Below are positions 5,182-24,764 of a stretch of 64,000 bases of DNA, one piece after another. The notes under the pieces are model-generated. The model was not told where the DNA came from and did not search any database. It saw nothing but the letters and a program-made list of their open reading frames with translations. How positions within the stretch are numbered: position 1 is the stretch's first letter; each line of letters begins with the position of its first letter. The position numbers and the translations under genes are program-made. The stretch comes from Bacteroidota bacterium (lineage in GTDB: Bacteria > Bacteroidota > Bacteroidia > Bacteroidales > TTA-H9): positions 124,001 to 188,000 of the forward strand of contig QKGM01000038.1 of NCBI GenBank assembly GCA_003250395.1. Direction: 5' to 3'.

Positions 5182-5778
5182 AGGAATTAAGAGGCTGGTT
5201 GCCGATATAAAAGTGTAAGCTACTTAACTGGTCAGATGAAGTTTGTTGTCGAAATTTTCATCCAATATGAAAAAAAAAGTTTGGTTAAAGGATTTCTATG
5301 TGCTCAGCGTCAGGGGTTCATGGGTAAATAAAGCCGGGGAAATTGAAATTTGTAAAAATTACAGACAGATATTCGTTTAAAGAGGATTAATTAACCAGAG
5401 ATTAATTCCCAGATATGCTGATAATCAAGAAAAAGATATGTCAAAGATATACCAATGATAAGGGGGTGTCGCCTTAATTATATCTTTTTATTGGATTATC
5501 AGTATGTTAGGATAGTATTTGGCAAAAGGTTTTATTAAGTAGAATTTCTGCAAGGGGGTAAATTGTAATAACCATGAAAGCTTGATTTAGAAATTTCTTT
5601 CGAACCGGACACGGATAAAAATAGGACACCGGAAGTAAAAAATAAGCAATATTAATGACATTAATCTCAGGAAGTTGCTTTACCTGTAACAAGATACCGT
5701 TATATGATTCGAATTACTTTCTCTATTTTTGCATAAATACCGGTGTCTCCAATAAATGATAGCTTTAACCAATCTGTT
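5182..5778. other. Intergenic region with one inverted repeat
   Basis: About 600 bases between the divergent metG and transglutaminase genes. A 9-base inverted repeat (AAAGATATA at 5443-5451, TATATCTTT at 5479-5487) encloses 27 bases. A TATTTTTG box at 5724-5731 may be the -7 element for the downstream lipoprotein gene. The only frame of note, about 61 codons on the minus strand (5507-5692), has no features of a real gene. Confidence 0.45.
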
Positions 5779-8382
5779 ATGAACCAACGACTCTTATCTT
5801 TTTTTGTTTTTTTATTGCTGTTTACTGCCTGTAATCAGCAGGAACCCCATTTTATTACTGATAGTACCTATCGTCGGCAGGTTGAAGCTGATTATGAGGT
5901 TGCCAGGCATCTCGCGGGTCCCCGCCAGGAAAAACTGTTTGGTGTGATGGATCAGGATCTGACAATTGAGGAAAGTGAAGCATTGAAGTTCCTGTTTGCT
6001 TACATGCCGCTTAACGACATGGCAGATTATGATGGTGTTTTTTTTCTGCGAAACGTAAGGCTTGCTTTCGCCGCGCGTGATACTTTTTCCTGGGGAAGAA
6101 CGATACCTGAGGATGTATTCCGTCACTTTGTCCTCCCGTACAGGGTAAATAATGAGAATCTTGATTCCGCGCGTGCTGTTTTTTTTCATGAGTTAACTCC
6201 CCGTCTTAAAAACTTAACAATGAAAGAGGCTGCACTGGAAGTGAATCACTGGTGTCATGAGAAGGTAAACTACCAGGGGACTGACAGTCGCACCATTTCT
6301 CCATTGGGGGCTATCTGTACAGCTTACGGTCGTTGTGGTGAGGAATCAACTTTTACTACAACTGCATTACGATCTGTCGGGATACCTGCCCGGCAGGTCT
6401 ATACGCCCCGATGGGCTCATGTTGATGATAATCATGCCTGGGTGGAGGTTTGGGTTGATGGGAAATGGCAATTTCTTGGAGCCTGCGAACCTGCACCGGA
6501 TTTGAATCAGGGTTGGTTTGCCGGACCGGCATTACGGACGATGATGGTTCACACAAATGCATTTGGCCGGTATCAGGGGACTGAAAAAGTATTGAAATCG
6601 TACGAAAAATATGCCCGTCTCAACCTCCTTGGAAATTATGCCCCCACCAGGCAGATAGCAGTTAAAGTTACCGGAAGAGACGGAAATCCAATCCAGGGTG
6701 CTACAGTCGATTTTGGCTTGTATAATTATGCTGAATTTTATACACTCCATCGTACTTTATCCGACGAAAACGGGATAGCACTTTTTGAGACAGGACTTGG
6801 TGATATTCAGATCTGGGCGTGCGATAAGAAGGGAAATTTTAACTTAAGCCGATTGACGGTTGAAGCTACTGATACACTTATTCTTCATCTCACCCGTAAA
6901 GCGGGTGATGAATTTGTATATGATTCTGACAATGTTCCACCCATCGTCAGAGAACCAGCAAGTATATCAGAATCAGGACAAAAGGAGAATGACCTAAGGC
7001 TGGCAATTGAGGATTCTGTTCGTAATGCATATATCGCTACTTTTATCAAAGAGGATGAAGCCAGGGCATTAGCTGCTTCATTGGGGCTTAATGCAGACAG
7101 GTTCTGGTCGGTAATGCAAAAAAGTCGTGGAAACTGGAAGGCTATCAGGTCATTTTTCGAAAAAACGGATAAAAATAACAGGCAACTTGCCCTGATACTG
7201 ACTGAAACCATTGCCGAGAAGGATTTGCACGATACCCCTGAGACTGTACTGACTGATCACCTCACCCGTTATATTGCAAATGGCGGTTCATTAGTCCCTG
7301 ATGAGCGGGAAATACTTTACGTACTCAATCCCAGAATCGATTTGGAGAAACTGACTCCGTACCGGTCGTTATTAGCTGATAGTTTGTCGTTTCTGAAGGG
7401 TGGTGATGATGCAGCTACTGCTGGTTCCATCGCTGCCTGGATAGACGAAAATATCGCAATTGACAGTGTTAACAATTATTACGGAATCAGGATAACTCCT
7501 CCGGGCATGTTTGGATTGAGGCGTTCAGATCCTTCAAATCGTGATCTGCTTTTTGTTGCCGTGTGCAGGTCGCTGGGCATTAGTGCACGATTGGAGCCTG
7601 CAACAAAAATACCGCAGTACTATACTGATGGTTGGGTCAATGTTTCTTTTGCTGCCGGAGAGGCTCAGGCATTCGTGATGGAAAAAGGCCGGATTAGTCT
7701 TATTTATGATCAGAAAGAAACTCCTGAACCCTTGTATTATATTCATTTCAGCCTTGCCCGGTTTGATGGAACTGCTATGAAGACCCTTGAATTTGATGAG
7801 ATGAAGCCTATTAGTCGATTTCCTGAAGAGATAGAATTAGAGCCTGGCTACTATAGGTTATTGACCGGCAATAGGTTGAGCGACGGAACAGTTTTGGTAA
7901 GACAGTTATTCTTCAATCTTGCCAAAGGCGAAAAAAGGTCTATAGACCTTGTTGTACGTCATGAACAGGCATCATTAACGGTAATTGCCCGTTGGGCTGA
8001 AAATCCGCTAAATCTTTCATCTGCAACTATTGTAGGATGGATTGATCCTGAAACAGAACCAGGGCGACATTTCCTTGTTGATATGGAGCCGGTAAAGGAA
8101 TCCTTTGAAAAGGCTGGTATCCGGATGCAAATTTTTACTGTTGACGAATCGAATGGTAATAAAATAAAAGGTCGTTTCCCTAAAGGAACAATTGTGAGAA
8201 CTGATGAAGGTTGGTCACTGGCGAGGTCATTTACCAGGATTACCGGGCTTAAGTCAGATGACGCTCTCCCTGTTTTTGTGGTATTGTCTGTTGATGGTGA
8301 TGTGGTTTATTATACTTCAGGATATCAGATTGGTACGGGAGAGCAGCTACTTAAAACTATGCAGCGGGCACTTCGGGAATAG
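5779..8382 (+). CDS. Transglutaminase-like domain lipoprotein
   Basis: About 867 residues. The ATG at 5779 starts an SPII signal, MNQRLLSFFVFLLLFTAC; the in-frame GTG at 5743 would only add a non-conserved leader. The transglutaminase-like core lies near residues 165-245: the cysteine at about 186 in AYGRCGEES, the histidine at about 219 in DDNHAWVEVW, and WQFLGACEP in place of the more usual Asp-containing LDPT. After it comes a carboxypeptidase-regulatory-like beta domain (VTGRDGNPIQGATVDFG) and long domains seen in Bacteroidota surface proteins. Such proteins may be proteases or peptide-modifying enzymes. It is predicted to be anchored in the cell envelope; the substrate is unknown. Confidence 0.85.
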   Translation: MNQRLLSFFVFLLLFTACNQQEPHFITDSTYRRQVEADYEVARHLAGPRQEKLFGVMDQDLTIEESEALKFLFAYMPLNDMADYDGVFFLRNVRLAFAARDTFSWGRTIPEDVFRHFVLPYRVNNENLDSARAVFFHELTPRLKNLTMKEAALEVNHWCHEKVNYQGTDSRTISPLGAICTAYGRCGEESTFTTTALRSVGIPARQVYTPRWAHVDDNHAWVEVWVDGKWQFLGACEPAPDLNQGWFAGPALRTMMVHTNAFGRYQGTEKVLKSYEKYARLNLLGNYAPTRQIAVKVTGRDGNPIQGATVDFGLYNYAEFYTLHRTLSDENGIALFETGLGDIQIWACDKKGNFNLSRLTVEATDTLILHLTRKAGDEFVYDSDNVPPIVREPASISESGQKENDLRLAIEDSVRNAYIATFIKEDEARALAASLGLNADRFWSVMQKSRGNWKAIRSFFEKTDKNNRQLALILTETIAEKDLHDTPETVLTDHLTRYIANGGSLVPDEREILYVLNPRIDLEKLTPYRSLLADSLSFLKGGDDAATAGSIAAWIDENIAIDSVNNYYGIRITPPGMFGLRRSDPSNRDLLFVAVCRSLGISARLEPATKIPQYYTDGWVNVSFAAGEAQAFVMEKGRISLIYDQKETPEPLYYIHFSLARFDGTAMKTLEFDEMKPISRFPEEIELEPGYYRLLTGNRLSDGTVLVRQLFFNLAKGEKRSIDLVVRHEQASLTVIARWAENPLNLSSATIVGWIDPETEPGRHFLVDMEPVKESFEKAGIRMQIFTVDESNGNKIKGRFPKGTIVRTDEGWSLARSFTRITGLKSDDALPVFVVLSVDGDVVYYTSGYQIGTGEQLLKTMQRALRE

Positions 8383-9673: not shown

Positions 9674-11464
9674 TTACAAAGATTGCAGTAGCATCTCAGG
9701 AATAACTGTAAGCCGGCCGATCGGGTACACATTATGTCTGACGTCATAATAGGGCGTTTGGCGGTAGAACCAGTTTAATTGTTCCCATTGATTATTTTTA
9801 AGGTTTGGATTCTGATCCATGTAGCTTTGGAAGCGTGAAAGAAGGGTCGTGTCAGCTTGTATCATTTTACGGGCCATTTTTTCCATGACGTATGTCTCTG
9901 AGTATTCTTTCTGTTCAAAGAAGATATTGAAGAATCCCCATGAAACAAATGAATCCTGTGCATCAGGTTCCAGCAGGTGTGCGATAACCCTTGCACTTCT
10001 TTGATTTGTAAATACAATAGCAGACCCGATGGCAAAATTCATGGTCTGTATGACTGGTTCGGATTTAAACAAGGGCATTTGACGCCCTTCATTTGAAGAA
10101 TGGCGGAATGTTACATCGTAGAAATGATATGTGCTTACATCGAGAGTAAGCTCTTTTTTCAGGACCTTTACTTCGATACCATGGAGCTTCACCCTTTCGA
10201 TGATATCTGTGAATTCTGCCGGAATGATATAAGCCTGAGGAAGTTCGACCCAGGTGGTAACTACAGGTTTGTTATAGAAAGGGAGGATGAATTTTTCTGG
10301 TTTATTATCGTAGATAAACCATTCGCCTTCGGTAAGATCACTTTTAATACTGTGATAGCTGATTCCTCTGAAATCGACCATCAGGCTATCGGTTTTAGAC
10401 ACATCGAATTTTACAGCAATCTTTTGTTTGCGGGAAGCGGCACTTGCAGTTGCTTCATCGGCCTGAACGAACATCCGTTTCAGGTTTTCTGCTTCACGAT
10501 TGAGAATCCCGAGCGCTATCCGAATTACCTCCATTGTTGATTCTACCCTTGGTTTGTAGGGTTTTAGCATATGAGTCTCGATTAAAAGACCTGGTCGGTT
10601 ATGTGCTGCTACATACCCCTGCGATAACATTGGGGGAGCTGGTCGGCTTATAAGCCCGCTTCTTGGATTGTGCCATTGCCTGAAACTGACATAAGGAAAT
10701 ACGGGGAATCCCGCTGTTTCCATTTTTTGTTCAAATTCGGGAGTAAATTTTGTAGCCAACCATTCTCCGATTGCAGGATCAATATTGCCACGATCTTCAA
10801 GAGCATAGGTAACTACATATTCGTAATCAGCGCCATCTGTAGTATGTGTGTCGATAAAGAAATCGGGATTCCATGCGTTGTAGAGTTTCAGCCAGGCCTT
10901 CATCTCGGGGGCATCAGCTTTCATAAAGTCGCGGTTCAGATTTAGGTTCTGCATGGTGGTTCTCCAACCCATTTCTACTGGTCCGTTTTGGTTTATCCGG
11001 TTATAGGGTCCAAATCGTTCATGTCCATCAACATTAAAGATGGGGATAAACAGAATAGTCACATTATTGAGCAGACTCTGATCAATGTTTCTGAACGCGA
11101 TATTACGTATAAGCAGCAAGCCGGCATCTTTTCCTTCAGGTTCACCAGGATGAATACAAGCATTGATAAGCATAATCATATTACCCGATTTTCGTACACT
11201 TTCAGGGTCAAAATTACCATGAGCATCGATAATAAGAAGAGGTAGTTCTCTTCCCTGTGGACTGACACCGAATGAGGTATACTTAATCAGGGGTGAAGTC
11301 TCGGCCATCTTCCGGCAGAAATCAATGGTGGCATCGTAACGGGGAGTCTTTGTCCCCCCAGATCTTTCATAATCTGTATCCCAGTTGTCGGCATGAGTAT
11401 CTGTATTGGCAATAAGAAATATAAAGAGAAACAGTTGGATGAGAGAATGGTATTTCGTTGTCAT
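9674..11464 (-). CDS. Secreted M14-family zinc carboxypeptidase
   Basis: A 596-residue exported peptidase. The N-terminus has a signal peptide (LIQLFLFIFLIANTDTHA). The M14 zinc site is visible as H105 and E108 in IHPGEPEGKD and H207 in DTHTTDG; the catalytic glutamate is probably E296 in LLIETHM. The substrate-binding NLNRDF motif lies near residue 175. The family removes C-terminal amino acids or trims peptides; the long C-terminal half of about 250 residues is common in Bacteroidota members and of unclear role. It lies 92 bases after the symporter gene in the same direction, which suggests peptide digestion coupled to uptake, as an inference from context. Confidence 0.9.
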   Translation of the reverse strand: MTTKYHSLIQLFLFIFLIANTDTHADNWDTDYERSGGTKTPRYDATIDFCRKMAETSPLIKYTSFGVSPQGRELPLLIIDAHGNFDPESVRKSGNMIMLINACIHPGEPEGKDAGLLLIRNIAFRNIDQSLLNNVTILFIPIFNVDGHERFGPYNRINQNGPVEMGWRTTMQNLNLNRDFMKADAPEMKAWLKLYNAWNPDFFIDTHTTDGADYEYVVTYALEDRGNIDPAIGEWLATKFTPEFEQKMETAGFPVFPYVSFRQWHNPRSGLISRPAPPMLSQGYVAAHNRPGLLIETHMLKPYKPRVESTMEVIRIALGILNREAENLKRMFVQADEATASAASRKQKIAVKFDVSKTDSLMVDFRGISYHSIKSDLTEGEWFIYDNKPEKFILPFYNKPVVTTWVELPQAYIIPAEFTDIIERVKLHGIEVKVLKKELTLDVSTYHFYDVTFRHSSNEGRQMPLFKSEPVIQTMNFAIGSAIVFTNQRSARVIAHLLEPDAQDSFVSWGFFNIFFEQKEYSETYVMEKMARKMIQADTTLLSRFQSYMDQNPNLKNNQWEQLNWFYRQTPYYDVRHNVYPIGRLTVIPEMLLQSL

Positions 11465-11556: not shown

Positions 11557-12804
11557 TTATACGATTACGGGATTAGTATTTCTAGATTTGCTGTCGTCAG
11601 GTTCGGAACGGGCAATAATTACAGCGGCACAGGTATCACCATAAACATTAAGTGCTGTGCGAAACATATCGAGTATTCTGTCAACTGCCAATATCAGTCC
11701 AATTCCTTCGAGTGGAAGACCCACAGCGGTCATCACTATGGCCATCATCACCATCCCAGCCATGGGGATTCCGGCAGAACCAATTGCTGCCAGTAAGGCT
11801 GTTGTAACAACTATTAGCTGCTTGCCAACTGATAGTTCGATACCGTATGCCTGGGCAATAAACATAACAGCTACACATTCGTATAAGGCAGTCCCATTCA
11901 TGTTGATAGTTGCCCCGAGAGGTAATGTGAACCCGCTAATAACAGGCGAAACACCCGATTTTGTTTCAATTTCACTAATGGTCAGAGGTAGGGTGGCGTT
12001 GCTTGATGAAGTTGAGAAAGCAGTTAACAGAACAGCGCTCATATTTCGAATGTGTTCAATAGGTTTAATGCCACCTAATACTTTAAGGGCAATTGACATT
12101 GTGATGAATCCATGAAAGAGGATACCAATGATAACTGTCAGCATATAGAGCCCTAGTCGTCCGGTCACAGCTAAAAGAGCATCCTGATCACCCGCCTGTT
12201 CACTGATAACTTTGGCTACTATTCCAAATATTCCGGCAGGGGTAAACCTGATGACAACCATTGTAATCTTCATCATTAAATCCGATAATGCTCCGAAAGC
12301 AGTTGTTAAAGATTTGGAATGGTTTTCATCCAGACGTGGAATGAAATATCCGAATATTATTGCAAAAAAGATGATAGGAAGCATATCGCCTCTCATCAGT
12401 GAAGCGAAAATATTGTCAGGGATAATACCCAAAACGGTTTCCAGAAAAGAATAACCGGCAACTCCAATCGTTTCCGGTTGCGCAGCAAGTCCAATTTCGG
12501 CTCCTATGCCTGGTGTAATAAGGTTCACCAGGACAAGCCCGGTAGTGATAGCAATCAGGCTGGTTATCAGGTAGAATAGCATTGTTTTTAGTCCTATCCT
12601 TCCCAGGTTTTCTACATTTCCAACGTTGGCAACTCCAGTTACAAGGGTACAAAATACCAGCGGGATTATGATCATTCTTAGCAAGCGAAGAAATAAGTCG
12701 CCAATCCATCCTACCCAAACGACTCCATCAGGGATAAAAAAGCCGAAAATTCCCCCGGCAAGAAGTGCAATAAGGATTTGCCAGTGTAAGGCAATGTGTT
12801 TCAT
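11557..12804 (-). CDS. Dicarboxylate/amino acid:cation symporter (DAACS family)
   Basis: A 415-residue integral membrane transporter of the SLC1/GltP/DctA family, which moves glutamate, aspartate or C4-dicarboxylates with Na+ or H+. The signature serine-rich hairpin FSTSSSNATLP and the transport-core motif LGATINMNGTALYE are both present, with multiple hydrophobic segments in the expected order. The length is normal. It cannot be separated into glutamate versus dicarboxylate specificity from sequence alone. It precedes the M14 carboxypeptidase gene on the minus strand and diverges from the NRPS gene. Confidence 0.93.
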   Translation of the reverse strand: MKHIALHWQILIALLAGGIFGFFIPDGVVWVGWIGDLFLRLLRMIIIPLVFCTLVTGVANVGNVENLGRIGLKTMLFYLITSLIAITTGLVLVNLITPGIGAEIGLAAQPETIGVAGYSFLETVLGIIPDNIFASLMRGDMLPIIFFAIIFGYFIPRLDENHSKSLTTAFGALSDLMMKITMVVIRFTPAGIFGIVAKVISEQAGDQDALLAVTGRLGLYMLTVIIGILFHGFITMSIALKVLGGIKPIEHIRNMSAVLLTAFSTSSSNATLPLTISEIETKSGVSPVISGFTLPLGATINMNGTALYECVAVMFIAQAYGIELSVGKQLIVVTTALLAAIGSAGIPMAGMVMMAIVMTAVGLPLEGIGLILAVDRILDMFRTALNVYGDTCAAVIIARSEPDDSKSRNTNPVIV

Positions 12805-13080: not shown

Positions 13081-16000
13081 ATGCCAAAGATGTTTGCAGG
13101 TCAAACGTTAACTTCACTGGTTGACAGAAGTGCTAACCAGTTTCCCGATCGACTGGCTGTTGTATCAAACGATGAAGCCATTACATATAGTGATTTAATG
13201 GAACGCAGCCGAATGTTGAGTCGATGGCTAATAGCTCAGGGTCTGCGTTCTGAGGAGATGGTTGTTTTGATTCATAACCGAAGTGTTCAAATGGTGGTCG
13301 ACCTGATAGCTATACTATTAGCTGGAGGAGCCTGGGTTCCGATATCGCCTCAACAACCTCTGGGACGTATACAACAGATACTTGGACAAGTTAATCCGCG
13401 TTTTATTCTTTCTGATGTTGACGATCCTTTGGTAATTGGTTTAACCTGGATTGGCCCTACAAAAAAGGAGAAGATCAACCTTGGAGAGCATCCTGATTAT
13501 TCTTTACCGGAAATTGATCCGGGACAACTGGCTTATGTACTCTTTACCTCAGGATCAACAGGTGTTCCCAAGGGAGTTATGGTTGAGCACCGCTCGGTGG
13601 TTGCCATGCTTAATGGTTTTGAAAGAATAGCTCCAATAGAAGGCCCTTTTAAAGGTTTAAGTGTTTGTTCATATGTGTTTGATGTATCGGTTTGGGAATT
13701 CTTTTCGGCTTTGGGTTTTGGAGGAACGCTATATTTGGCTGAACCGGATAGCCTGCTTGATACAGATTCATTTTGCAGTCTTCTCAATAAAAATACTATC
13801 AATAGTGGCTATTTCCCTCCCGGGGTTCTCGTTCCTTTAGGGAATGAACTATTGAAGGCTGAATATTCTGTTCCGTTAAAAAGAATGCTCGTGGGTGTTG
13901 AACCAATACTTGGTGAGACGCTTTCTCGTTTTTCGAAATTGCCATCTAATCCTGAAATCATTAATGGGTATGGGCCAACTGAAGCAACCATCTGTGCTAC
14001 ATTTCATAAATATTCGGAAAATGACAAACCAAAAGCACGCGTTCCAATAGGAAGGGCATTGCCCGGATACGAGATAGTATTGCTTGATGAATCGTATCAA
14101 TTAGTCGAAAAAGGGCGAATTGGAGAGATTGCAATTGGTGGAGTAGGGCTTGCGAGGGGCTATCTTGGACTGGATGATCTGACAGAAAGATGTTTTATCA
14201 ATCATCCTTTAAAAGTAGGAGAAAGGCTTTATCTGACAGGTGATTATGCACATGAACTGCCTGATGGAAATTTTATTTTTCGGGGACGTGCTGATAACCA
14301 GGTTAAAATGCATGGATATCGGATAGAATTAGCTGAGATCGAGAAGAATCTGGAGTCAATGCCAAAGATTACAGCCTCTGCTGTTATCCATAAGAGCAAC
14401 AGCGACTGGCACCATACGCTCATATGTTATTATGAGACTGATGAAGGGCGTATTGTTAAGCCGGAAGAATTGCAGGAGTGGCTCAATTTACGTCTACCTG
14501 TTTTCATGATTCCTAATCGTTTTGTTCAGTTGAATATGCTGCCACGAACAGTTAACGGGAAAATTGACAGGGATAAATTATCATCTCTTGAATTTCAAAA
14601 TGTCGGTGTGAGTCATCCTCTTTTATCTGGTGTCAATGAAGTTGTCCAGAAAGTGTGGAGGACAGTATTAGGACACTGGCCCAGAGGTGAAAATGATGAC
14701 TTTTTTAAAGCAGGTGGGGATTCCCTAAGTGCCATGCATTTTGGGATGCTTATCGCGCAATCGGCAGGGATTAAGGTAACTGTTAAGACCATATTTGAAA
14801 ATTCAACTCCCAGGGCTTTATCCGATTATATGACTTTAAAGAAGCCTCAAAATCGGGTTTCCAAAGCAATGAACATACCTAAACCTGATGAACCCTTTCC
14901 TTTGGCATATACACAACAAAGGCCCTGGTTGCTATTCCGTTTGGGTGGTGATACTTCGATTTATAATCTGCCATTGGCATACAGGATAAAAGGTTTTGTT
15001 GATGAATCGGCACTTGAGAAAGCCCTTCGATCGATTGTTCAACGTCATGAATCCTTACGGCTATCATTTGGAGAGTCCAACGGTTTGGGTTATCAGATGG
15101 TTAATTCTTCTGTACCTTTAGCTTTGGTGAAAGAGTCTATTTCTCAATATGAAAACAGGGAAGAGTCATTAATTAAGTATCTTAATTCAGAGTCAGACAT
15201 TCCATTTGATTTGTCGCAACCACCACTATTCAGGGCTTCGTTATTAAAGATATCTGACAATGATCAAGTATTGTTTATAGTAACGCATCACTTGGTTTTG
15301 GATGGTTGGTCTTTGGGAATTCTTCACCGTGAATTGGAAGAAATCTATAAACACTTTTTAAATCAGCAGAGCGAGGAACTGACAGAACCTGTTAATGGCT
15401 GGACTAGATTTGTTGCAGAGCAGCAAATGCGGTTCAACAATAATGATTTCGATAATGGCCTACGTTTTATGGAACGTTATTTAAAAGGGGCTCCTCCTTT
15501 TTTACAACTACCATCATGGAACCAACGCCCGGCTTACCAGTCCTTTAAAGGGGAGTCAGTCTTCATTTATCCTGAGGCCGGATTAGTAGAAGCGATATCG
15601 GATACAGCGCATTTATATAACGTAAGTTCATTCATGCTCCTCATGGCTGCTTATAGTGTATGGCTGAATGGACTTACTGGAAGCGATGATTTTGTAGCAG
15701 GGACAATGACTGCTTCACGAAATAATCCTGAAAGCATTAATGTTATTGGCTTTTACAGTGAGAGTATTCCGATAAGGTTTACAATTCCTGATGGTCTTTC
15801 TTTTGGTGAATGGTTACTGAAGGTAAAAGATAACCTGCTTGAAGTGTTTGGTCGTCAGGATATTCCATTCGAGTTGTTGCTACAGAAGCTGAATCCGCCA
15901 AGAAATAACCAGTATAATCCTATATTTCAGGTTATGCTTGTACATCTCCGTGAAGGAGGAGATTCATTTTATTTGGGAGAAACTGAATGTAAGGCCCTTC

Positions 16001-19000
16001 ATCTCCCTTATCCGGGTTCCAAGCTGGATTTGACATTATACATTAATGAATATCCGGGAAAATTGATGATCATGGCCGAGTACAATGCTGAATTGTTTGA
16101 TTCTTCACTAATGCAGTCGATGCTGGATGGATATGTTAATATATTAAAGCAGTGTACAGCAGATCCTTCAGTTCCTTTGTCGAAGATTCATCTGGTAAAT
16201 GATCATTTGATTACGGAACTAAAGCATTCGAGTGGTGAAAGTGTAGAGGGGGCTCCTTATTTAGCAATTCCGGAAATGGTTTACAGGCGGGCAGCCATAC
16301 AACCAGAGGCCATTGCAATTATGGATAGGAGAATTAATTATTCTTATGGCTGGTTAAAGAATCGGGCTGAAAGTCTAACCGGGGAAATTCTTAGAAGAAA
16401 TCCTGAAAAAGGGGCAGTGGCATTACTTGCCGGTAGAAGCCATGAATCGGTAGCCGCTATGTTGGCAATAATGAGTTCGGGTTGTTTGTTGGTTCCTCTT
16501 TCAGCACATATTCCTTCATCAAGGATAGTCTATATCATGAATGACGCAGATGTCCGGTTGATTGTAGCTGATGGAAGTATTGATATTCCACAAGAGGTGA
16601 GTGTTTTGCCTGTTGTTGATTTGAATACGTCCATCGATTCTATACCGCTTTCTGTAGAAACTGTTTTAGAGGAGTGTCCTGCCTACTGTATTTATACGAG
16701 TGGTACATCCGGCAAACCCAAGGGAGTAGTTGTTTCGCATGGTAATTTAAGCAATTTTATACAAGCTGCCATTTCTTATTACGAAATATCGAATAAGGAC
16801 CGGGTACTACAGTTTGCTTCTTTTGCTTTCGATGCATCTGTTGAGGAAATATGGACGACATGGTGCGCTGGTGCCACCCTTGTTATTCGTGATGAAGAGA
16901 TGATCTCTTCTGCTCCCCGATTTATGCATCAATGCGATGAATATGGAATTACAGTCCTGGATCTTCCAACGGCCTATTTTCATCATTTGGCTGGTTCGGG
17001 TGAGACTGAATTATTTCAAATACCCCATGATCTGAGATTGGTGATATTGGGTGGGGAGGCTTTGCAACCTGCCATGGTATCAAGATGGCAGAAGATATCC
17101 GGAGGGACTCCCAGGCTGATAAATACCTATGGGCCTACTGAGGCAACAGTTGTGGCATTGTGGTCGGATGTAAATATATCTCAGGACCTTCATCAGGTAT
17201 TTATAGGAACACCTATCCCGGGTAATCAGGTGTATGTGGTTGACAAGCATTTAAGGCTTGTTCCACCGGGGGTAACAGGAGAATTACTGATCGGAGGGAA
17301 GGGTGTTGTATCTGGTTATTTAAATGATCCTTCGTTAACAGAAAGATCATTTATCAGATTGCCTTTTGCGCAGGAAAGGATTCTTTACCGAACCGGCGAT
17401 CTGGTAAGATATCATCAATCAGGTAGCATTGAGTTTCTGGGAAGGCTTGATGATCAGGTAAAGATAAGAGGTTTTAGGGTTGAGCCTTCGGAAGTAGAGT
17501 CAGTGATTGCCAGATGGCCCGGAATGCATGATGTCATAGTTGCTCCACATAAAAGTGCAGGCGAAGACCAGGTATTATGCTGCTGGTACCGCTCAGAAGA
17601 GGATATTGATCCGGAAGAGTTACGTAAGTGGCTTATATGGCAATTGCCAGAATATATGGTTCCTTCTGCCTGGGTAAGAATTGATGCTGTTCCGATGACC
17701 CTCTCAGGAAAGGTCGATAAATCCCGTTTACCCATTCCTTTGAATTATCGGGCAACCAGTCAGAATTTCCAGTATCCAGCCGATGAAATTCAGCAGGGTT
17801 TAATTTTAGTATGGAGTAGTGTTCTTGGATCCGGACCATTGGGACCTGATGAGAATTTCTTTTTGAGGGGTGGTCATTCGCTTCTCGCTGCAACATTACT
17901 TTCTAGAGTAAGGCAACGGTTTAAGGTAGAAATTCTGTTACGTGATTTTTTCCAGGTACCGACTTTCTCAGGATTGGAAAAATTAATCAGAAACCATACT
18001 GGGAATAAATATTTGACCGAACAGGTGATAATGCCGTTTCAATGGGAAGATAGAATTCCATTATCATCTTCGCAACATAGGATTTGGTTCCTGGAAAAAC
18101 TGGAGACGCTTGGTGCAGTATTCTCAATACCACTTTCTTTTCGCCTGCATGGTTTGTTAAAGCCCGATGTTCTTAATCTCGCTCTTAACAGGTTGATTGT
18201 AGCGCATCAAATGCTCAGAGCTTATGTCTTATCCGATTCTGAAGGAAATCCTGAGCTGGTCTTTATAGAGAACCCGGAGTATAAAATTGAGATAGCCGAT
18301 TTTTCATCTCTCCCGCCTGGGAGAAGGATCGCTGAAATGACCTCAAAGGTTCAACGAAATGAACGTCTTACTTTTGATCCGGCTATTTGGCCACTTTTCA
18401 GGGTGAGCCTTATTCAGTTGGCTCCTGATGACTGGTATCTACTCTTAAACTTCCATCATTTAATTGCGGATAGTCGTAGTATTGGCTTATTTGTAGAAGA
18501 ATTTGGGTCGCTATATAATCGTCTTCTGGTAGATCAGGGAGCTGTCGCTAAACCCGAAAGTCCTTGCTATACTGATTATATATTCTGGCAACAGCAATGG
18601 CTTGCTTCTGAAGAAGCTTCTAAGCAGATTGGTATATGGGTAGAGAAGTTAACCGGAGCATCCAGTATTCTTCGTTTACCAACTGATCGCCCCCGACCAT
18701 CAAAACAATCATTTGAAGGAGATGAAGTAACGATTAAATTATCGGCTGAATTGGTGCTTCGCTTGAAGGAAATTGCCGCTCATCGGGGAGCCAGTCTGAA
18801 TACTATCCTTCTGACTTGTTTTTCTCTGGTGCTAAGTCGATATACAGCCCAATACGATTTTGTTATAGGAGTACCTGTTGCGGGGAGAACTGCAGAGGGT
18901 ACAGCGCGTTTATTTGGGACAACGATCAATAACCTGCCAGTCAGGATTAATGTGGAAGGGAAAGAAGATTTTGCTTTATGGATTGAAGAGGTTAACAGGG

Positions 19001-22000
19001 CTATGCTTGATGCACTATCACTTCAGGAGATCCCTTTTGAGCGAATCGTCAAGTCGATGAAGCTTCATCCTGATATGAGTATTACACCTCTGTATCAGGT
19101 TATGTTTAATATGCTGAATGCCCATAACGAAGAATTACGGTTGAGGGGTTGTAAGGTCGACTTCATAGAACCTTCCAGCCACTCGGCTCAATATGACCTG
19201 ACGCTTATTTTAAAGGAAAGGGAACAGGAATTATGGATTACATTCGAATATTCGCGCCGCTTATTTGACCAGATTACAATCAGACATATGAGCCGGGCTT
19301 TATTGACTGTTACGGAATTTGTTGCCTTTAATCCGAACAGGAAAATAGGGCAGATAGGACTTCTCTTACCTGCTGATGAATATCATCCTTTAAGACGAAC
19401 TGCCTCAAGAGAGGTGTTTCCCCGGATACCTTTACCTGAATTATTTTTGAAAGCTGCTGAAAGATATAGCACGGCTACTGCCATTGTTGCTGGAAATGTG
19501 AAGTTGACATATGCTGATGCAGCTTCCAAAATGATTGCGATGGCGAATGTTCTTCATTCTGTTGGTTGTAATTCATCAAGACCGGTTGGAGTCCTTGTTG
19601 AGAGAAATGAGTGGTTGCCTCTGGCGCTTATTGCAGTGCAGAAGGCCGGAAGTTTTTATGTGCCACTTGATCCGGTGTACCCTTCAGAAAGATTGTCCGA
19701 AATTATCAGGGATGCTGGAATAGAATTGTTGCTTGTTTCTAAATCAACAGTTCGTTTTGTGCCCAATGGGAATTTTACAATAATTCATGTCGATGAACTG
19801 AAATTGGAACATATAACCGGGATTCAGGTTTTCCCTGAAGTTAAAATGTCTGCCCCGGCTTATCTGATTTATACTTCAGGTTCAACCGGTAAACCAAAAG
19901 GTGTTCAAATCAGTCATGCCTCATTATCTAATCTTCTTTGGAGTATTAAGAATGATCCCGGAATGAGTTGTGATGACAGACTTCTTGCCGTTACAACTGT
20001 TTCTTTCGACATTGCAGCACTTGAACTGTTTGTACCCCTTATAAGCGGGGCAACCCTGGTTATAGCATCTGAAGAAGAGCAGCAGGATGCATGGCTTCTT
20101 GGTGATTTAATTGAACAGAACAAAATAACCCTAATGCAGGCTACTCCTGTTACATGGCGGATGATGCTTCACGCAGGCTGGTTAGGTTCTTCTGATCTTA
20201 CCCTTCTCTGTGGTGGAGAAGCATTGCCCCGTGAGCTGGCCAGTCAGCTGATTCCCCGTTGTCGTAAGTTATATAACATGTATGGCCCTACAGAAACAAC
20301 TATCTGGAGTTCCGTGGAAAGAGTTGACCAGGTAGATGACAACACACCTTTTATCAGACTTGGGAAACCTATCGCCAACAATTTTTTGTATGTTACTGAC
20401 GAATTCCTGAATCCTGTTCCTCCCGGAGTGCCTGGCGAATTGCTTATCGGAGGTGAAGGAGTAGCTATTGGCTATCTGAACCGACCCGAATTAAACAGGG
20501 AAAAGTTTCTTCCTGATCCTTTCGACACTACACCAGGTGCCCGTGTGTACCGGACTGGTGATTTGGTAAAACTCAGAAACGATGGGACGTTTGATTTTTT
20601 GGGGCGGAATGATTATCAGATAAAACTTCGCGGGTTCAGAATTGAACCAGGAGAAATAGAATCTCTCCTGACCATGCATCCGGCAGTCAGGCAGGCTGTT
20701 GTTGTCATGCGGGAAGATTATGGAACTGTTAAACGTTTAGTTGCTTATTTGGAAGGAGAAAATTCTCAGTCAGTTAATGTTTCTTTCAGGGATTATTTAT
20801 CAGCTTATCTGCCAGGCTATATGATTCCTTCTGCTTTTGTCTGGGTGGATGAATTACCGTACACAGGTAATGGTAAAATTGACAGGAAATTACTTCCTGT
20901 TCCTGATACAATGGAAGTCGATACAAGTCAGCAGGACATAGCCCCTCAGAATTCAACCGAAGAGGCAATGCTTGAAATATGGAAGGAAATTTTGAAGTTA
21001 GAGCACATCTCAGTAACTGATGATTTTTTTGATCTTGGTGGTGATTCCCTGATGGCTGTAGGTCTAATGGCGAGAGTTGAGCTCAGGTTTAATATTCGGT
21101 TACCGCTGTCTACACTTTTCCATCACAGTACGCTAAGGGAGCTTTCGGCCAAAGTGTCGTTGAAAGAATCAGTTGTATCCTGGCGATCTTTAGTCGTTAT
21201 CAGGCCTATGGGGCATAAACCTCCTGTCTTCCTGATTCATGGTGCAGGTTTGAATGTATTACTTTATAATTCACTTGTTTTACATTTTCAAGCGGGTCAG
21301 CCAATCTATGCCTTACAGGCCAGGGGGCTTGATGGGAAAGAAAAGCCTCTCGAAACAATTGAGGAAATAGCGTCTCATTATATATCGGAAATTCGTAGTG
21401 TAAGTCAATTGGGACCTTTTGCTCTTGCAGGATTTAGTCTTGGAGGAATTATTGCTTTTGAAATAGCAAGGCAAATGAATGAAATGGGTTTGAAGACATT
21501 TTTTGTTGGCATGTTCGATACTGTTGCTTACACTTCTGAGGAGGATGTGCCGATTCTAAAGAGGAAATTAAATCACCTTATGTTTTACTCTCATCAGATT
21601 CTGTTTAATCTCAAGCTGATATTATTCGAAACGTCTAAACAACGTTCACGGTTTATCAGGCTAAAGATCAATAGTATTAAACAAATAATAGAGAGGGTTA
21701 AATTGAAATTAAAGGAGCAGAAAGCCTATCTGACTGGCGATAGGGACAAATTACAGTACTTTACCCTTCCTGTACATGAGATAAACAATCGTGCCGGAGA
21801 AAGATATCATTTGAAACCAACCGATATCCGGATAGATCTTTTCAAGGCCAGGCAGGCCACTTTTTATATTGCAGAACCAAAGTATTATGGCTGGAGTGAA
21901 TATGCTAAAAAGGGTGTGGATGTTCATGAGGTTCCGGGAGAGCATAATACGATTTTTCATCCTCCTCATGATAAACAATTTGCCATCACACTCCAGCGTT

Positions 22001-22047
22001 GTATAGATGAAGCATTTGACAGATATCAGAAGAAATCTGTTGGCTGA
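13081..22047 (+). CDS. Three-module non-ribosomal peptide synthetase (A-T-C-A-T-C-A-T-TE)
   Basis: A single 2988-residue NRPS. Domain order by residue: A1 about 1-500, T1 with phosphopantetheine serine S548 (AGGDSLSAM), C1 about 610-1050 with HHLVLDG at 736-742, A2 about 1065-1545 with YTSGTSGKPKG at 1205, T2 S1600 (RGGHSLLA), C2 about 1650-2080 with HHLIADS at 1792-1798, A3 about 2110-2600 with YTSGSTGKPKG at 2264, T3 S2656 (LGGDSLMA), and a type I thioesterase about 2715-2985 with GFSLGG (S2786), a likely Asp 2813 and His 2955 (PGEHNTIF). It starts with an A-T loading module and has no epimerase, methylase or reductase domain. The predicted product is a released or cyclised tripeptide. No MbtH, PPTase or export gene is adjacent. 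The 276 bases upstream show no clear promoter box. Confidence 0.97.
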   Translation: MPKMFAGQTLTSLVDRSANQFPDRLAVVSNDEAITYSDLMERSRMLSRWLIAQGLRSEEMVVLIHNRSVQMVVDLIAILLAGGAWVPISPQQPLGRIQQILGQVNPRFILSDVDDPLVIGLTWIGPTKKEKINLGEHPDYSLPEIDPGQLAYVLFTSGSTGVPKGVMVEHRSVVAMLNGFERIAPIEGPFKGLSVCSYVFDVSVWEFFSALGFGGTLYLAEPDSLLDTDSFCSLLNKNTINSGYFPPGVLVPLGNELLKAEYSVPLKRMLVGVEPILGETLSRFSKLPSNPEIINGYGPTEATICATFHKYSENDKPKARVPIGRALPGYEIVLLDESYQLVEKGRIGEIAIGGVGLARGYLGLDDLTERCFINHPLKVGERLYLTGDYAHELPDGNFIFRGRADNQVKMHGYRIELAEIEKNLESMPKITASAVIHKSNSDWHHTLICYYETDEGRIVKPEELQEWLNLRLPVFMIPNRFVQLNMLPRTVNGKIDRDKLSSLEFQNVGVSHPLLSGVNEVVQKVWRTVLGHWPRGENDDFFKAGGDSLSAMHFGMLIAQSAGIKVTVKTIFENSTPRALSDYMTLKKPQNRVSKAMNIPKPDEPFPLAYTQQRPWLLFRLGGDTSIYNLPLAYRIKGFVDESALEKALRSIVQRHESLRLSFGESNGLGYQMVNSSVPLALVKESISQYENREESLIKYLNSESDIPFDLSQPPLFRASLLKISDNDQVLFIVTHHLVLDGWSLGILHRELEEIYKHFLNQQSEELTEPVNGWTRFVAEQQMRFNNNDFDNGLRFMERYLKGAPPFLQLPSWNQRPAYQSFKGESVFIYPEAGLVEAISDTAHLYNVSSFMLLMAAYSVWLNGLTGSDDFVAGTMTASRNNPESINVIGFYSESIPIRFTIPDGLSFGEWLLKVKDNLLEVFGRQDIPFELLLQKLNPPRNNQYNPIFQVMLVHLREGGDSFYLGETECKALHLPYPGSKLDLTLYINEYPGKLMIMAEYNAELFDSSLMQSMLDGYVNILKQCTADPSVPLSKIHLVNDHLITELKHSSGESVEGAPYLAIPEMVYRRAAIQPEAIAIMDRRINYSYGWLKNRAESLTGEILRRNPEKGAVALLAGRSHESVAAMLAIMSSGCLLVPLSAHIPSSRIVYIMNDADVRLIVADGSIDIPQEVSVLPVVDLNTSIDSIPLSVETVLEECPAYCIYTSGTSGKPKGVVVSHGNLSNFIQAAISYYEISNKDRVLQFASFAFDASVEEIWTTWCAGATLVIRDEEMISSAPRFMHQCDEYGITVLDLPTAYFHHLAGSGETELFQIPHDLRLVILGGEALQPAMVSRWQKISGGTPRLINTYGPTEATVVALWSDVNISQDLHQVFIGTPIPGNQVYVVDKHLRLVPPGVTGELLIGGKGVVSGYLNDPSLTERSFIRLPFAQERILYRTGDLVRYHQSGSIEFLGRLDDQVKIRGFRVEPSEVESVIARWPGMHDVIVAPHKSAGEDQVLCCWYRSEEDIDPEELRKWLIWQLPEYMVPSAWVRIDAVPMTLSGKVDKSRLPIPLNYRATSQNFQYPADEIQQGLILVWSSVLGSGPLGPDENFFLRGGHSLLAATLLSRVRQRFKVEILLRDFFQVPTFSGLEKLIRNHTGNKYLTEQVIMPFQWEDRIPLSSSQHRIWFLEKLETLGAVFSIPLSFRLHGLLKPDVLNLALNRLIVAHQMLRAYVLSDSEGNPELVFIENPEYKIEIADFSSLPPGRRIAEMTSKVQRNERLTFDPAIWPLFRVSLIQLAPDDWYLLLNFHHLIADSRSIGLFVEEFGSLYNRLLVDQGAVAKPESPCYTDYIFWQQQWLASEEASKQIGIWVEKLTGASSILRLPTDRPRPSKQSFEGDEVTIKLSAELVLRLKEIAAHRGASLNTILLTCFSLVLSRYTAQYDFVIGVPVAGRTAEGTARLFGTTINNLPVRINVEGKEDFALWIEEVNRAMLDALSLQEIPFERIVKSMKLHPDMSITPLYQVMFNMLNAHNEELRLRGCKVDFIEPSSHSAQYDLTLILKEREQELWITFEYSRRLFDQITIRHMSRALLTVTEFVAFNPNRKIGQIGLLLPADEYHPLRRTASREVFPRIPLPELFLKAAERYSTATAIVAGNVKLTYADAASKMIAMANVLHSVGCNSSRPVGVLVERNEWLPLALIAVQKAGSFYVPLDPVYPSERLSEIIRDAGIELLLVSKSTVRFVPNGNFTIIHVDELKLEHITGIQVFPEVKMSAPAYLIYTSGSTGKPKGVQISHASLSNLLWSIKNDPGMSCDDRLLAVTTVSFDIAALELFVPLISGATLVIASEEEQQDAWLLGDLIEQNKITLMQATPVTWRMMLHAGWLGSSDLTLLCGGEALPRELASQLIPRCRKLYNMYGPTETTIWSSVERVDQVDDNTPFIRLGKPIANNFLYVTDEFLNPVPPGVPGELLIGGEGVAIGYLNRPELNREKFLPDPFDTTPGARVYRTGDLVKLRNDGTFDFLGRNDYQIKLRGFRIEPGEIESLLTMHPAVRQAVVVMREDYGTVKRLVAYLEGENSQSVNVSFRDYLSAYLPGYMIPSAFVWVDELPYTGNGKIDRKLLPVPDTMEVDTSQQDIAPQNSTEEAMLEIWKEILKLEHISVTDDFFDLGGDSLMAVGLMARVELRFNIRLPLSTLFHHSTLRELSAKVSLKESVVSWRSLVVIRPMGHKPPVFLIHGAGLNVLLYNSLVLHFQAGQPIYALQARGLDGKEKPLETIEEIASHYISEIRSVSQLGPFALAGFSLGGIIAFEIARQMNEMGLKTFFVGMFDTVAYTSEEDVPILKRKLNHLMFYSHQILFNLKLILFETSKQRSRFIRLKINSIKQIIERVKLKLKEQKAYLTGDRDKLQYFTLPVHEINNRAGERYHLKPTDIRIDLFKARQATFYIAEPKYYGWSEYAKKGVDVHEVPGEHNTIFHPPHDKQFAITLQRCIDEAFDRYQKKSVG

Positions 22048-22126: not shown

Positions 22127-22855
22127 GTGGTTGATAGCATTGTAATAATTCCGACTTATAACGAAAAAGAAAATATCGAACAGATAATCAGGAAGGTATT
22201 TTCTTTATCCCATCCTTTCGATGTACTGATAATTGAAGATAACAGCCCCGATGGTACTGCAACTATCGTAAAGCGTTTGATGGAAGAGTTCCCTGGCAGG
22301 CTGTTTATAGAGGAAAGAAAGGGAAAACTAGGTTTGGGAACCGCTTACATTCATGGTTTCAAGTGGGCTTTGAAAAGGGATTATCCTTATATATTTGAGA
22401 TGGATGCTGACTTTTCCCATAATCCTGAAGATCTTCTTAAGCTCAGGGAAGCTGTCGCGGAGAAGGGAGCTGATGTCGCAATCGGGTCGAGATACATTAC
22501 TGGTGTTAATGTCGTGAACTGGCCTATGGGGCGTGTGCTGATGTCTTATTATGCTTCTGCTTATGTAAGGTTTATTACAGGAATGACTATCAGGGATACT
22601 ACTGCAGGATTTAAATGTTATTCCGCAAGTGTTCTCCGTACCATCGATCTTGATGCTATCAGCTTTGTAGGATATGCTTTTCAGATCGAAATGAAATATA
22701 CAGCATGGAAGTTGGGCTTTAATATTATGGAGGTGCCGATAATATTTACAGACCGCACTCTTGGTCAATCTAAAATGAGCAAGGGTATCTTTAAGGAGGC
22801 TATACTGGGTGTCATTAAACTAAGGTTTAAGCGTATCAGGAAAAAAGCTGTCTGA
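22127..22855 (+). CDS. DPM1-like polyprenol-phosphate glycosyltransferase (GT2)
   Basis: A 242-residue GT2 enzyme with the N-terminal IVIIPTYNEKENIEQII, the IIEDNSPDGTA motif and the metal-binding EMDADFSHNPEDL near residue 90. This is the polyprenol monophosphomannose synthase pattern: it transfers mannose or a related sugar from a nucleotide donor to a polyprenyl phosphate, giving a lipid-linked donor for envelope glycosylation. No C-terminal membrane domain is present, as in the soluble DPM1 type. The start is GTG, supported by the family's N-terminal motif lying just after it. The gap from the NRPS stop is 79 bases; a functional link to the peptide is not evident. Confidence 0.9.
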   Translation: MVDSIVIIPTYNEKENIEQIIRKVFSLSHPFDVLIIEDNSPDGTATIVKRLMEEFPGRLFIEERKGKLGLGTAYIHGFKWALKRDYPYIFEMDADFSHNPEDLLKLREAVAEKGADVAIGSRYITGVNVVNWPMGRVLMSYYASAYVRFITGMTIRDTTAGFKCYSASVLRTIDLDAISFVGYAFQIEMKYTAWKLGFNIMEVPIIFTDRTLGQSKMSKGIFKEAILGVIKLRFKRIRKKAV

Positions 22856-22890: not shown

Positions 22891-22945
22891 CATGTGCATG
22901 CCAGTGAAATCAGGCTGCACATTTTTTTTGATAAAAATTTCTGAT

Positions 22946-24292
22946 ATGAAATATGAGAACTATCTGATTCGAAATGCCCGATTAATAAATGAAGGAGAGA
23001 TATTCAATGCTGATCTTTTGACAGAAGGGGCTTATATACGAAAGATAGCTTCAGGAGGAACTATTGATCCACCGGCAGGAACTATCATAGTTGAGGGGAG
23101 GGGAAAGCTTTTGCTTCCCGGTGTTATCGACGATCAGGTACATTTCAGGGAGCCGGGTCTTACCCATAAGGGTGATATTTATACGGAATCGAGAGCTGCC
23201 GTAGCAGGAGGGGTCACATCTTTCATGGAAATGCCCAATACGCAACCACAAACTTTGACCCAGGAGCTTCTTGAAGAAAAGTACCAGCGTGCGTCACAAG
23301 TATCAGCTGCTAATTATTCATTTTATATGGGAGCCTCAAACGATAACCTTGCCGAGGTGCTTCGTACTGATCCCCGTACAGTTTGCGGAATAAAGGTTTT
23401 TATGGGCGCAAGTACAGGAAACATGCTCGTTGATAATCCTGACACTCTACGGGGTATTTTCGCCGGTGCTCCCTGTCTTGTAGCGGTTCATTGTGAAGAT
23501 GAACCTACTGTCAGGAAGAATTTGGAGGAGGCAATAACCCGCTTTGGGGAAGACATTCCTGTAACGCTTCATCCTGAGATCAGAAGCCGTGAGGCTTGTT
23601 TGAAATCATCAACTCTCGCCATACAACTTGCTCGGGAATATGGAACACGTTTACACATTTTACACGTTAGCACTGCTGATGAACTGGCACTTTTTTCAAA
23701 TGCACCATTGAGCGAGAAAAAAATCACCGCCGAAGTTTGTGTTCATCATTTATGGTTTTCTTCAGAGGATTACAGGCTGTCGGGAAACCGGATTAAATGG
23801 AATCCGGCGGTTAAAGAGCCTGCAGACCGTGATGCGCTGCTTTCAGGTTTAAAAAACGGCCTGCTTGATGTTGTGGCGACTGATCATGCCCCTCACACGC
23901 TTCAGGAAAAATCACTTCCATATATTAAAGCACCGTCAGGCGGACCACTGGTACAACATTCCCTGGTGGCAATGCTCGAGATGTCGCTTCAGGGTAAGAT
24001 TGAAATAACTGAAGTGATCCGTAGGATGTGTCATATTCCTGCTGATCTGTTTAAAGTAGATAGAAGGGGTTATCTGCGTGAAGGTTTTTATGCAGATATG
24101 GTCTTAGTTGATCCTGTTACTGCCTGGACTGTAGCGCCAGAGAATATTTTATATAAATGTGGCTGGTCTCCTTTTGAAGGGACATCATTTCACCATCGCG
24201 TGGAAAGTACATTTGTAAACGGACAGCTGGTTTTTGACAATGGAAAGTTGACGGATTCGTTGAGTAGCATGAGGTTGATATTTAATAGATAA
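22946..24292 (+). CDS. pyrC: Dihydroorotase
   Basis: About 448 residues, amidohydrolase superfamily. It interconverts carbamoyl-aspartate and dihydroorotate in pyrimidine synthesis. Visible features are LPGVIDDQVHFREPG, the lysine in GIKVFMGAST, histidines in VAVHCEDE and LHILHVST, and the catalytic aspartate in ATDHAPHT. The first metal-ligand position of the usual HxH motif is glutamine (Q64-V-H66); I believe this also occurs in relatives within the phylum. The ATG at 22946 directly precedes the conserved ENYLIRNARLINEG start. Pyrimidine partner genes are not in the window. Confidence 0.93.
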   Translation: MKYENYLIRNARLINEGEIFNADLLTEGAYIRKIASGGTIDPPAGTIIVEGRGKLLLPGVIDDQVHFREPGLTHKGDIYTESRAAVAGGVTSFMEMPNTQPQTLTQELLEEKYQRASQVSAANYSFYMGASNDNLAEVLRTDPRTVCGIKVFMGASTGNMLVDNPDTLRGIFAGAPCLVAVHCEDEPTVRKNLEEAITRFGEDIPVTLHPEIRSREACLKSSTLAIQLAREYGTRLHILHVSTADELALFSNAPLSEKKITAEVCVHHLWFSSEDYRLSGNRIKWNPAVKEPADRDALLSGLKNGLLDVVATDHAPHTLQEKSLPYIKAPSGGPLVQHSLVAMLEMSLQGKIEITEVIRRMCHIPADLFKVDRRGYLREGFYADMVLVDPVTAWTVAPENILYKCGWSPFEGTSFHHRVESTFVNGQLVFDNGKLTDSLSSMRLIFNR

Positions 24293-24320: not shown

Positions 24321-24764
24321 ATGAAGTTACGTATTGCATCCACATTGTTGATGATTGTGGTATTCCTGGCCTGTAAGCCTCAGAACGGACAAATCGTTAT
24401 CGAACGATATGACGGGAATGCTCCTAAAGTGATGAAAGAATTTGAAATTAATAAAGGAGATACTACATTTACTAAGGAAATTCAGTTTTATCCCAATGGA
24501 CAGAAGCATCTTGAAGGATCACTTACCGATGGCAAACGGGATAGCACATGGACTACCTGGAGAGAGGATGGGAAGCTTTGGAGCCAGGCTACTTACAGGA
24601 ATGGGATAGAGCATGGCGTTTCAGTTGCCTACCACCCTACCGGAGCTAAATACTACGAAGGAAGTTTTTATAATGGCCGACGAGTGGGAGTATGGCATTT
24701 CTATGATGAGACAGGGAAGGAAGTTAATTCCATGGATTTTGGTAAAGTAAATGAGCAGGAATAA
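24321..24764 (+). CDS. MORN-repeat (YwqK-type) lipoprotein
   Basis: A 147-residue lipoprotein with SPII signal MKLRIASTLLMIVVFLAC. The mature part has tandem MORN-variant repeats of about 23 residues (FYPNGQKHLEGSLTDGKRD, YHPTGAKYYEGSFYNGRR), the pattern seen in proteins annotated as YwqK-family antitoxins. No toxin partner sits beside it, so the antitoxin label should not be taken literally; in Bacteroidota these repeats are common in envelope lipoproteins of unknown role. It follows pyrC by 28 bases and may be cotranscribed. Confidence 0.85.
   Translation: MKLRIASTLLMIVVFLACKPQNGQIVIERYDGNAPKVMKEFEINKGDTTFTKEIQFYPNGQKHLEGSLTDGKRDSTWTTWREDGKLWSQATYRNGIEHGVSVAYHPTGAKYYEGSFYNGRRVGVWHFYDETGKEVNSMDFGKVNEQE

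Follow-up and report, generated by a model that had tools for sequence, protein, structure and literature searches.

Relationship of the synthetase to described systems

The described systems closest to the locus reported here are type I modular non-ribosomal peptide synthetases (NRPSs) with a terminal thioesterase (TE) domain, represented by EntF, SrfA-C, and LgrA-like enzymes. The NRPS encoded in the window (the whole stretch of 64,000 nucleotides that was analyzed, derived from a Bacteroidales metagenome-assembled genome, MAG) shares with them the domain types, the domain order, and the catalytic motifs; with its repeated condensation–adenylation–carrier (C–A–T) modules, carrier serines, and adenylation core motifs, it is a member of this well-known class, brings no new mechanism, and operates like any linear NRPS. 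In contrast to those systems, the window NRPS contains the whole pathway in one gene, without a starter C domain, a tailoring domain, a linked cluster, or an epimerization (E) domain, for which the Pfam scan of the protein was negative. The closest solved A domains are found in LgrA (linear gramicidin synthase), and for the TE, the nearest matches among solved structures are ABBFA_003403 (4zxh) and an NRPS4 TE (7crn). Against the product-specific NCBIfam models for AusA, MxcG, SolG, and EntF, the protein reaches 40–57% of the cut-offs, thus falling below all of them, and the structure and NCBIfam model comparisons revealed no close characterized counterpart.

Across 600 surveyed Bacteroidetes genomes, the class Bacteroidia proved poor in biosynthetic gene clusters, with 1.15 per strain, and only 12 of 306 cluster families were tied to known products (PMC9248904). 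Almost no natural products are known from the lineage of the window. Among 99 sampled genomes of the order, a condensation domain is present in 14, seven of which belong to the family of the window genome, in agreement with the scarcity of NRPS genes assumed in a preliminary description of this DNA. Our literature search retrieved no paper on a tripeptide made by a Bacteroidales NRPS; the product is undescribed in the literature searched, and the novelty of product and role lies solely in their lack of characterization.

Domain architecture and catalytic residues

The NRPS gene (13081..22047, plus strand) is a single open reading frame of 2988 residues, which starts with ATG and is free of internal stop codons. 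Pfam identifies three AMP-binding, two Condensation, three PP-binding, three AMP-binding_C, and one Thioesterase domains, with E-values from 1e-217 to 1e-22, and the motif positions give the order A1–T1–C1–A2–T2–C2–A3–T3–TE. The complete three-module assembly line in one 9-kb gene, as first described, is thereby borne out by reading frame, Pfam, and motif order alike. A frameshift artifact was considered and rejected on the basis of the uninterrupted frame and of intact full-length homologs of 2983–2991 residues in four independent assemblies. The two C domains of this protein are the only ones in the MAG (3.0 Mb, estimated to be 76% complete), of which it is the sole NRPS.

Module 1 consists of the A1 domain (13105..14595, plus strand, as are all domains) and the T1 carrier domain (14638..14835; FFKAGGDS). 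It is followed by the C1 domain (14902..16215), the A2 domain (16264..17748), and the T2 domain (17776..17976; FFLRGGHS), and then by the C2 domain (18043..19380), the A3 domain (19438..20898), the T3 domain (20962..21156; FFDLGGDS, Pfam and motif), and the TE domain (21214..22005; Pfam and conserved triad motifs). All three A domains contain the TSG(S/T)(T/S)G and YGPTE motifs, Asp235, and the A10 lysine (Lys517). The phosphopantetheine-accepting GGxS serine is found in each of the three T domains and the TE carries an intact GFSLGG motif, as the preliminary description had it; the serine of this motif, the aspartate of GMFDTV, and the histidine of PGEHNT form the TE triad, which is invariant in seven sequences. 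The core of C1 (HHLVLDG) fits the HHxxxDG consensus, whereas that of C2 (HHLIADS), a detail missed in the earlier account, retains HHxxxD but has the final Gly replaced by Ser. On inspection of their N-terminal motifs, both C domains look LCL-type. A structure model of the TE has a mean pLDDT of 64, which is too weak to tell hydrolysis from cyclization.

Conservation in the family and genomic context

The NRPS is carried by seven of the nine family genomes, including that of the window; five of the seven carriers have the complete three-module layout, one (G008) has the gene split over two contigs, and one (G006) has a four-module version. Full-length identity to the window NRPS decreases from 71% in G001, which is of the same genus, through 53% (G002) and 40% (G005) to 38% (G004). 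The two NRPS-free genomes both come from one other genus (g2). The GC content of the gene (41.9%) equals that of its flanks, and dN/dS relative to G001 is about 0.12, a rough value as dS is about 1.6 and thus near saturation. The family-wide conservation, flank-like GC content, and low dN/dS together point to vertical inheritance of the gene under constraint. Recent horizontal transfer was rejected, since the GC content is like that of the flanks, and both synteny and the order of divergence track the family.

The chromosomal site is likewise fixed. In all seven carriers, the NRPS adjoins the same divergently oriented SDF-family (Glu/Asp-type) symporter gene (11557..12804, minus strand; Pfam and synteny) and a gene for a probable M14-type zinc carboxypeptidase (9674..11464, minus strand; family assigned from the appearance of the sequence), so that the synteny to be looked for in relatives was indeed found; in G002, the symporter gene spans a contig break, with its remainder and the peptidase gene on the next contig. 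Within the genus and in G006, the NRPS gene is followed by the same family 2 glycosyltransferase gene (22127..22855, plus strand; Pfam and synteny), which is not a neighbor in G004 and G005, and by the housekeeping dihydroorotase gene pyrC (22892..24292, plus strand; profile match and synteny). A clean empty site was not found in the NRPS-less genus, where the peptidase gene has different neighbors. A close ortholog of the symporter is absent from the two non-carriers. A functional link between symporter and NRPS was nevertheless rejected, because orthologs with 49–61% identity are common in genomes without an NRPS; the symporter is probably a mere neighbor.

The surroundings contain no export or resistance gene linked to the NRPS and, as had been claimed, no adjacent tailoring or regulatory gene. 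A search for the Bacteroidota-type promoter pattern gave no match near the NRPS, and its matches across the window were not above chance; scanning the window for Rfam families and tRNAs also gave no matches. Two further proteins encoded nearby are conserved among the relatives: an 879-residue protein with a transglutaminase-like core (window positions 5743–8382), which is 80% identical in G001, and a 147-residue MORN_2-repeat protein (24321–24764), located downstream of the dihydroorotase gene and kept in G001 and G006.

Phosphopantetheinyl transferases and MbtH

No phosphopantetheinyl transferase (PPTase) gene occurs in the NRPS neighborhood, and to that extent the absence stated in the preliminary description holds; the genome does contain two ACPS-superfamily genes elsewhere, the second of which co-occurs with the NRPS. 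All seven NRPS carriers of the family have two such genes, in contrast to one in each of the two non-carriers. In the phylogenetic tree, a housekeeping PPTase clade is represented in all nine family genomes, and the extra copies fall outside it; that of the window genome is G000:C6 (L003:1390–2151, minus strand), and that of G006 lies on a long branch. In other Bacteroidota, genes for relatives of the extra PPTase immediately follow NRPS genes. In the order-wide sample of 99 genomes, two or more PPTases are present in 14 of 14 genomes with C domains versus 10 of 85 without (Fisher p = 5e-11, the genomes not being phylogenetically independent). From this co-occurrence, their sole link, we infer that the second, Sfp-type PPTase arms the three carrier domains.

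An MbtH-like protein, already reported missing from the locus, was found in none of the nine family genomes by a search that was positive in the controls, Escherichia coli and Bacillus subtilis, and in which the MAG of the window is 76% complete and seven of the other eight family genomes are 92–97% complete. The term orphan, as first applied to the gene, is thus apt insofar as the NRPS is self-contained and has no linked cluster, but not in that the NRPS is a trait of the family, fixed in position and accompanied by an unlinked PPTase.

Substrate codes and predicted product

The substrate codes were read from an alignment of all A domains, in which two independent position maps (for A1 and A3) coincide in the alignment columns. 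In a survey of 2051 A domains, the A1 code, DVWYLGGICK, is Met-incorporating, and the A3 code, DILQLGMIWK, is a code reported for Gly (PMC12283262). The A2 code, DAEDIGTVVK, had no exact published counterpart in the literature searched; compared with the codes discussed in the same study, it shares 8 of 10 positions with the Arg consensus and likewise 8 of 10 with DGEDHGTVVK of the Lys set, so that Lys and Arg (or Orn) are not separable. The codes are almost invariant among the orthologs, being DVWYLGG(I/V)(C/S)K for A1, D(A/T)EDIGTVVK for A2, and DILQLG(M/L/V)(I/V)WK for A3, even though overall identity drops to 38%. Because of these code matches, the best prediction for the product is L-Met–L-(Lys/Arg)–Gly, which may be released in a linear, cyclic, or oligomeric form.

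In the proposed mechanism, the second Sfp-type PPTase encoded elsewhere would modify the three carrier domains. A1 would then load L-Met, whose amine would stay free as there is no starter C domain, while L-Lys or L-Arg would be the basic amino acid loaded by A2, and Gly the residue loaded by A3; C1 and C2 would form two peptide bonds of the L,L-type, and the TE would release the linear tripeptide or a cyclized or oligomerized form thereof. Taken as a whole, it appears likely that the gene encodes a functional type I NRPS, which has been kept vertically in an uncultured Bacteroidales family, makes Met–(Lys/Arg)–Gly, and is armed by the unlinked second PPTase.

An active synthetase making a different peptide is the less probable reading, to which we still give appreciable weight: A1 might accept Leu or some other hydrophobic residue, A2 might accept Orn or a further basic amino acid, or the product might be tailored by an unlinked enzyme. 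Code-based prediction is imprecise, the Met assignment of A1 depends on the curation of one paper, the A2 code is also close to Orn and Lys codes, and the A1 code of G006 differs (DVHYLGGVFK). On the other hand, the A1 code of the window NRPS is identical to the published Met code, the G006 variant itself agrees at 9 of 10 positions with another Met code, DVFYLGGVFK (PMC12283262), and the Gly code of A3 is canonical. Very little probability is given to a gene in decay or without a product, whose C2 would be disabled by the altered core. Besides the Ser in place of Gly in that core, such decay could be read from T1, the least conserved domain among the orthologs (24–64%), and from the absence of the gene in relatives of genus g2. 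Yet HHxxxD(S/N) is kept in C2 of every ortholog, including the matching domain of G006, which argues against simple decay; the other catalytic residues are intact, a frame of ~9 kb is open in five genomes, and the dN/dS value is that of a constrained gene.

For an NRPS that is minimal, conserved, and free of tailoring, and whose codes can be read, the product prediction is directly testable. We further suggest, tentatively and with rather less than even confidence, that the NRPS represents a conserved small-molecule trait, in which an unmodified Met–(Lys/Arg)–Gly or its cyclic oligomer would have a physiological or signaling rather than an antibiotic role, and gains or losses of entire modules at the single chromosomal site would alter the peptide length.

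Module gain or loss and related NRPSs in Bacteroidota

The NRPS of G006 (4598 residues; L035:3631–17427) occupies the same chromosomal site as the window NRPS and consists of four modules, of which modules 1, 3, and 4 correspond to modules 1, 2, and 3 of the window protein (41–49% identity between A domains). The extra module 2 comprises a degenerate formyltransferase-like region with relatives in NRPSs from Prolixibacteraceae (E-values down to 1e-19) and a second A domain for a basic residue. The two versions differ cleanly by one whole module, gained or lost, and the predicted product of the G006 enzyme is Met–basic–basic–Gly. A fixed locus with three- and four-module versions is thus a clean natural case of such gain or loss.

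In a tree of TE domains, those of the family cluster together with moderate support (80/93); the placement of the paralogs L039 and L040, which had been cut at the end of the reading frame instead of at the TE, was disregarded. TE domains that are ~40% related occur in NRPSs from Prolixibacteraceae and further Bacteroidota that contain a formyltransferase (L060, L062, L063, L065, L067, and L069), which also share the code DAEDIGTVVK and have a PPTase gene directly downstream. Unlike the window NRPS, these proteins have one or two modules and a formyltransferase domain, and several are encoded in an apparent glycosyltransferase cluster. Single-module formyltransferase–A–T–TE proteins are found in Prolixibacteraceae and relatives (L063:6557–10852, L065:6563–10852, L067:6557–10852, L069:6560–10858, and L066:7691–12001). 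The code DAEDIGTVVK was read in the first four of them. In all five, the PPTase gene comes directly after the NRPS gene, amid apparent glycosyltransferase and sugar-nucleotide genes. The product of these five proteins is possibly a formylated basic amino acid joined to a polysaccharide.

A second NRPS, with two modules bearing the codes DGWFSGVVYK and then DILQLGMIWK (Gly), was observed in two genomes of the family (L039, G002:C101; L040, G006:C78), and the reading frame of L039/L070 runs ~340 residues past the TE match. The code DGWFSGVVYK also occurs in two-module NRPSs of other Bacteroidota (L060:3449–10849 and L062:3395–11887), where it precedes a formyltransferase domain and the code DAEDIGTVVK; two thioesterase matches were obtained in L062.
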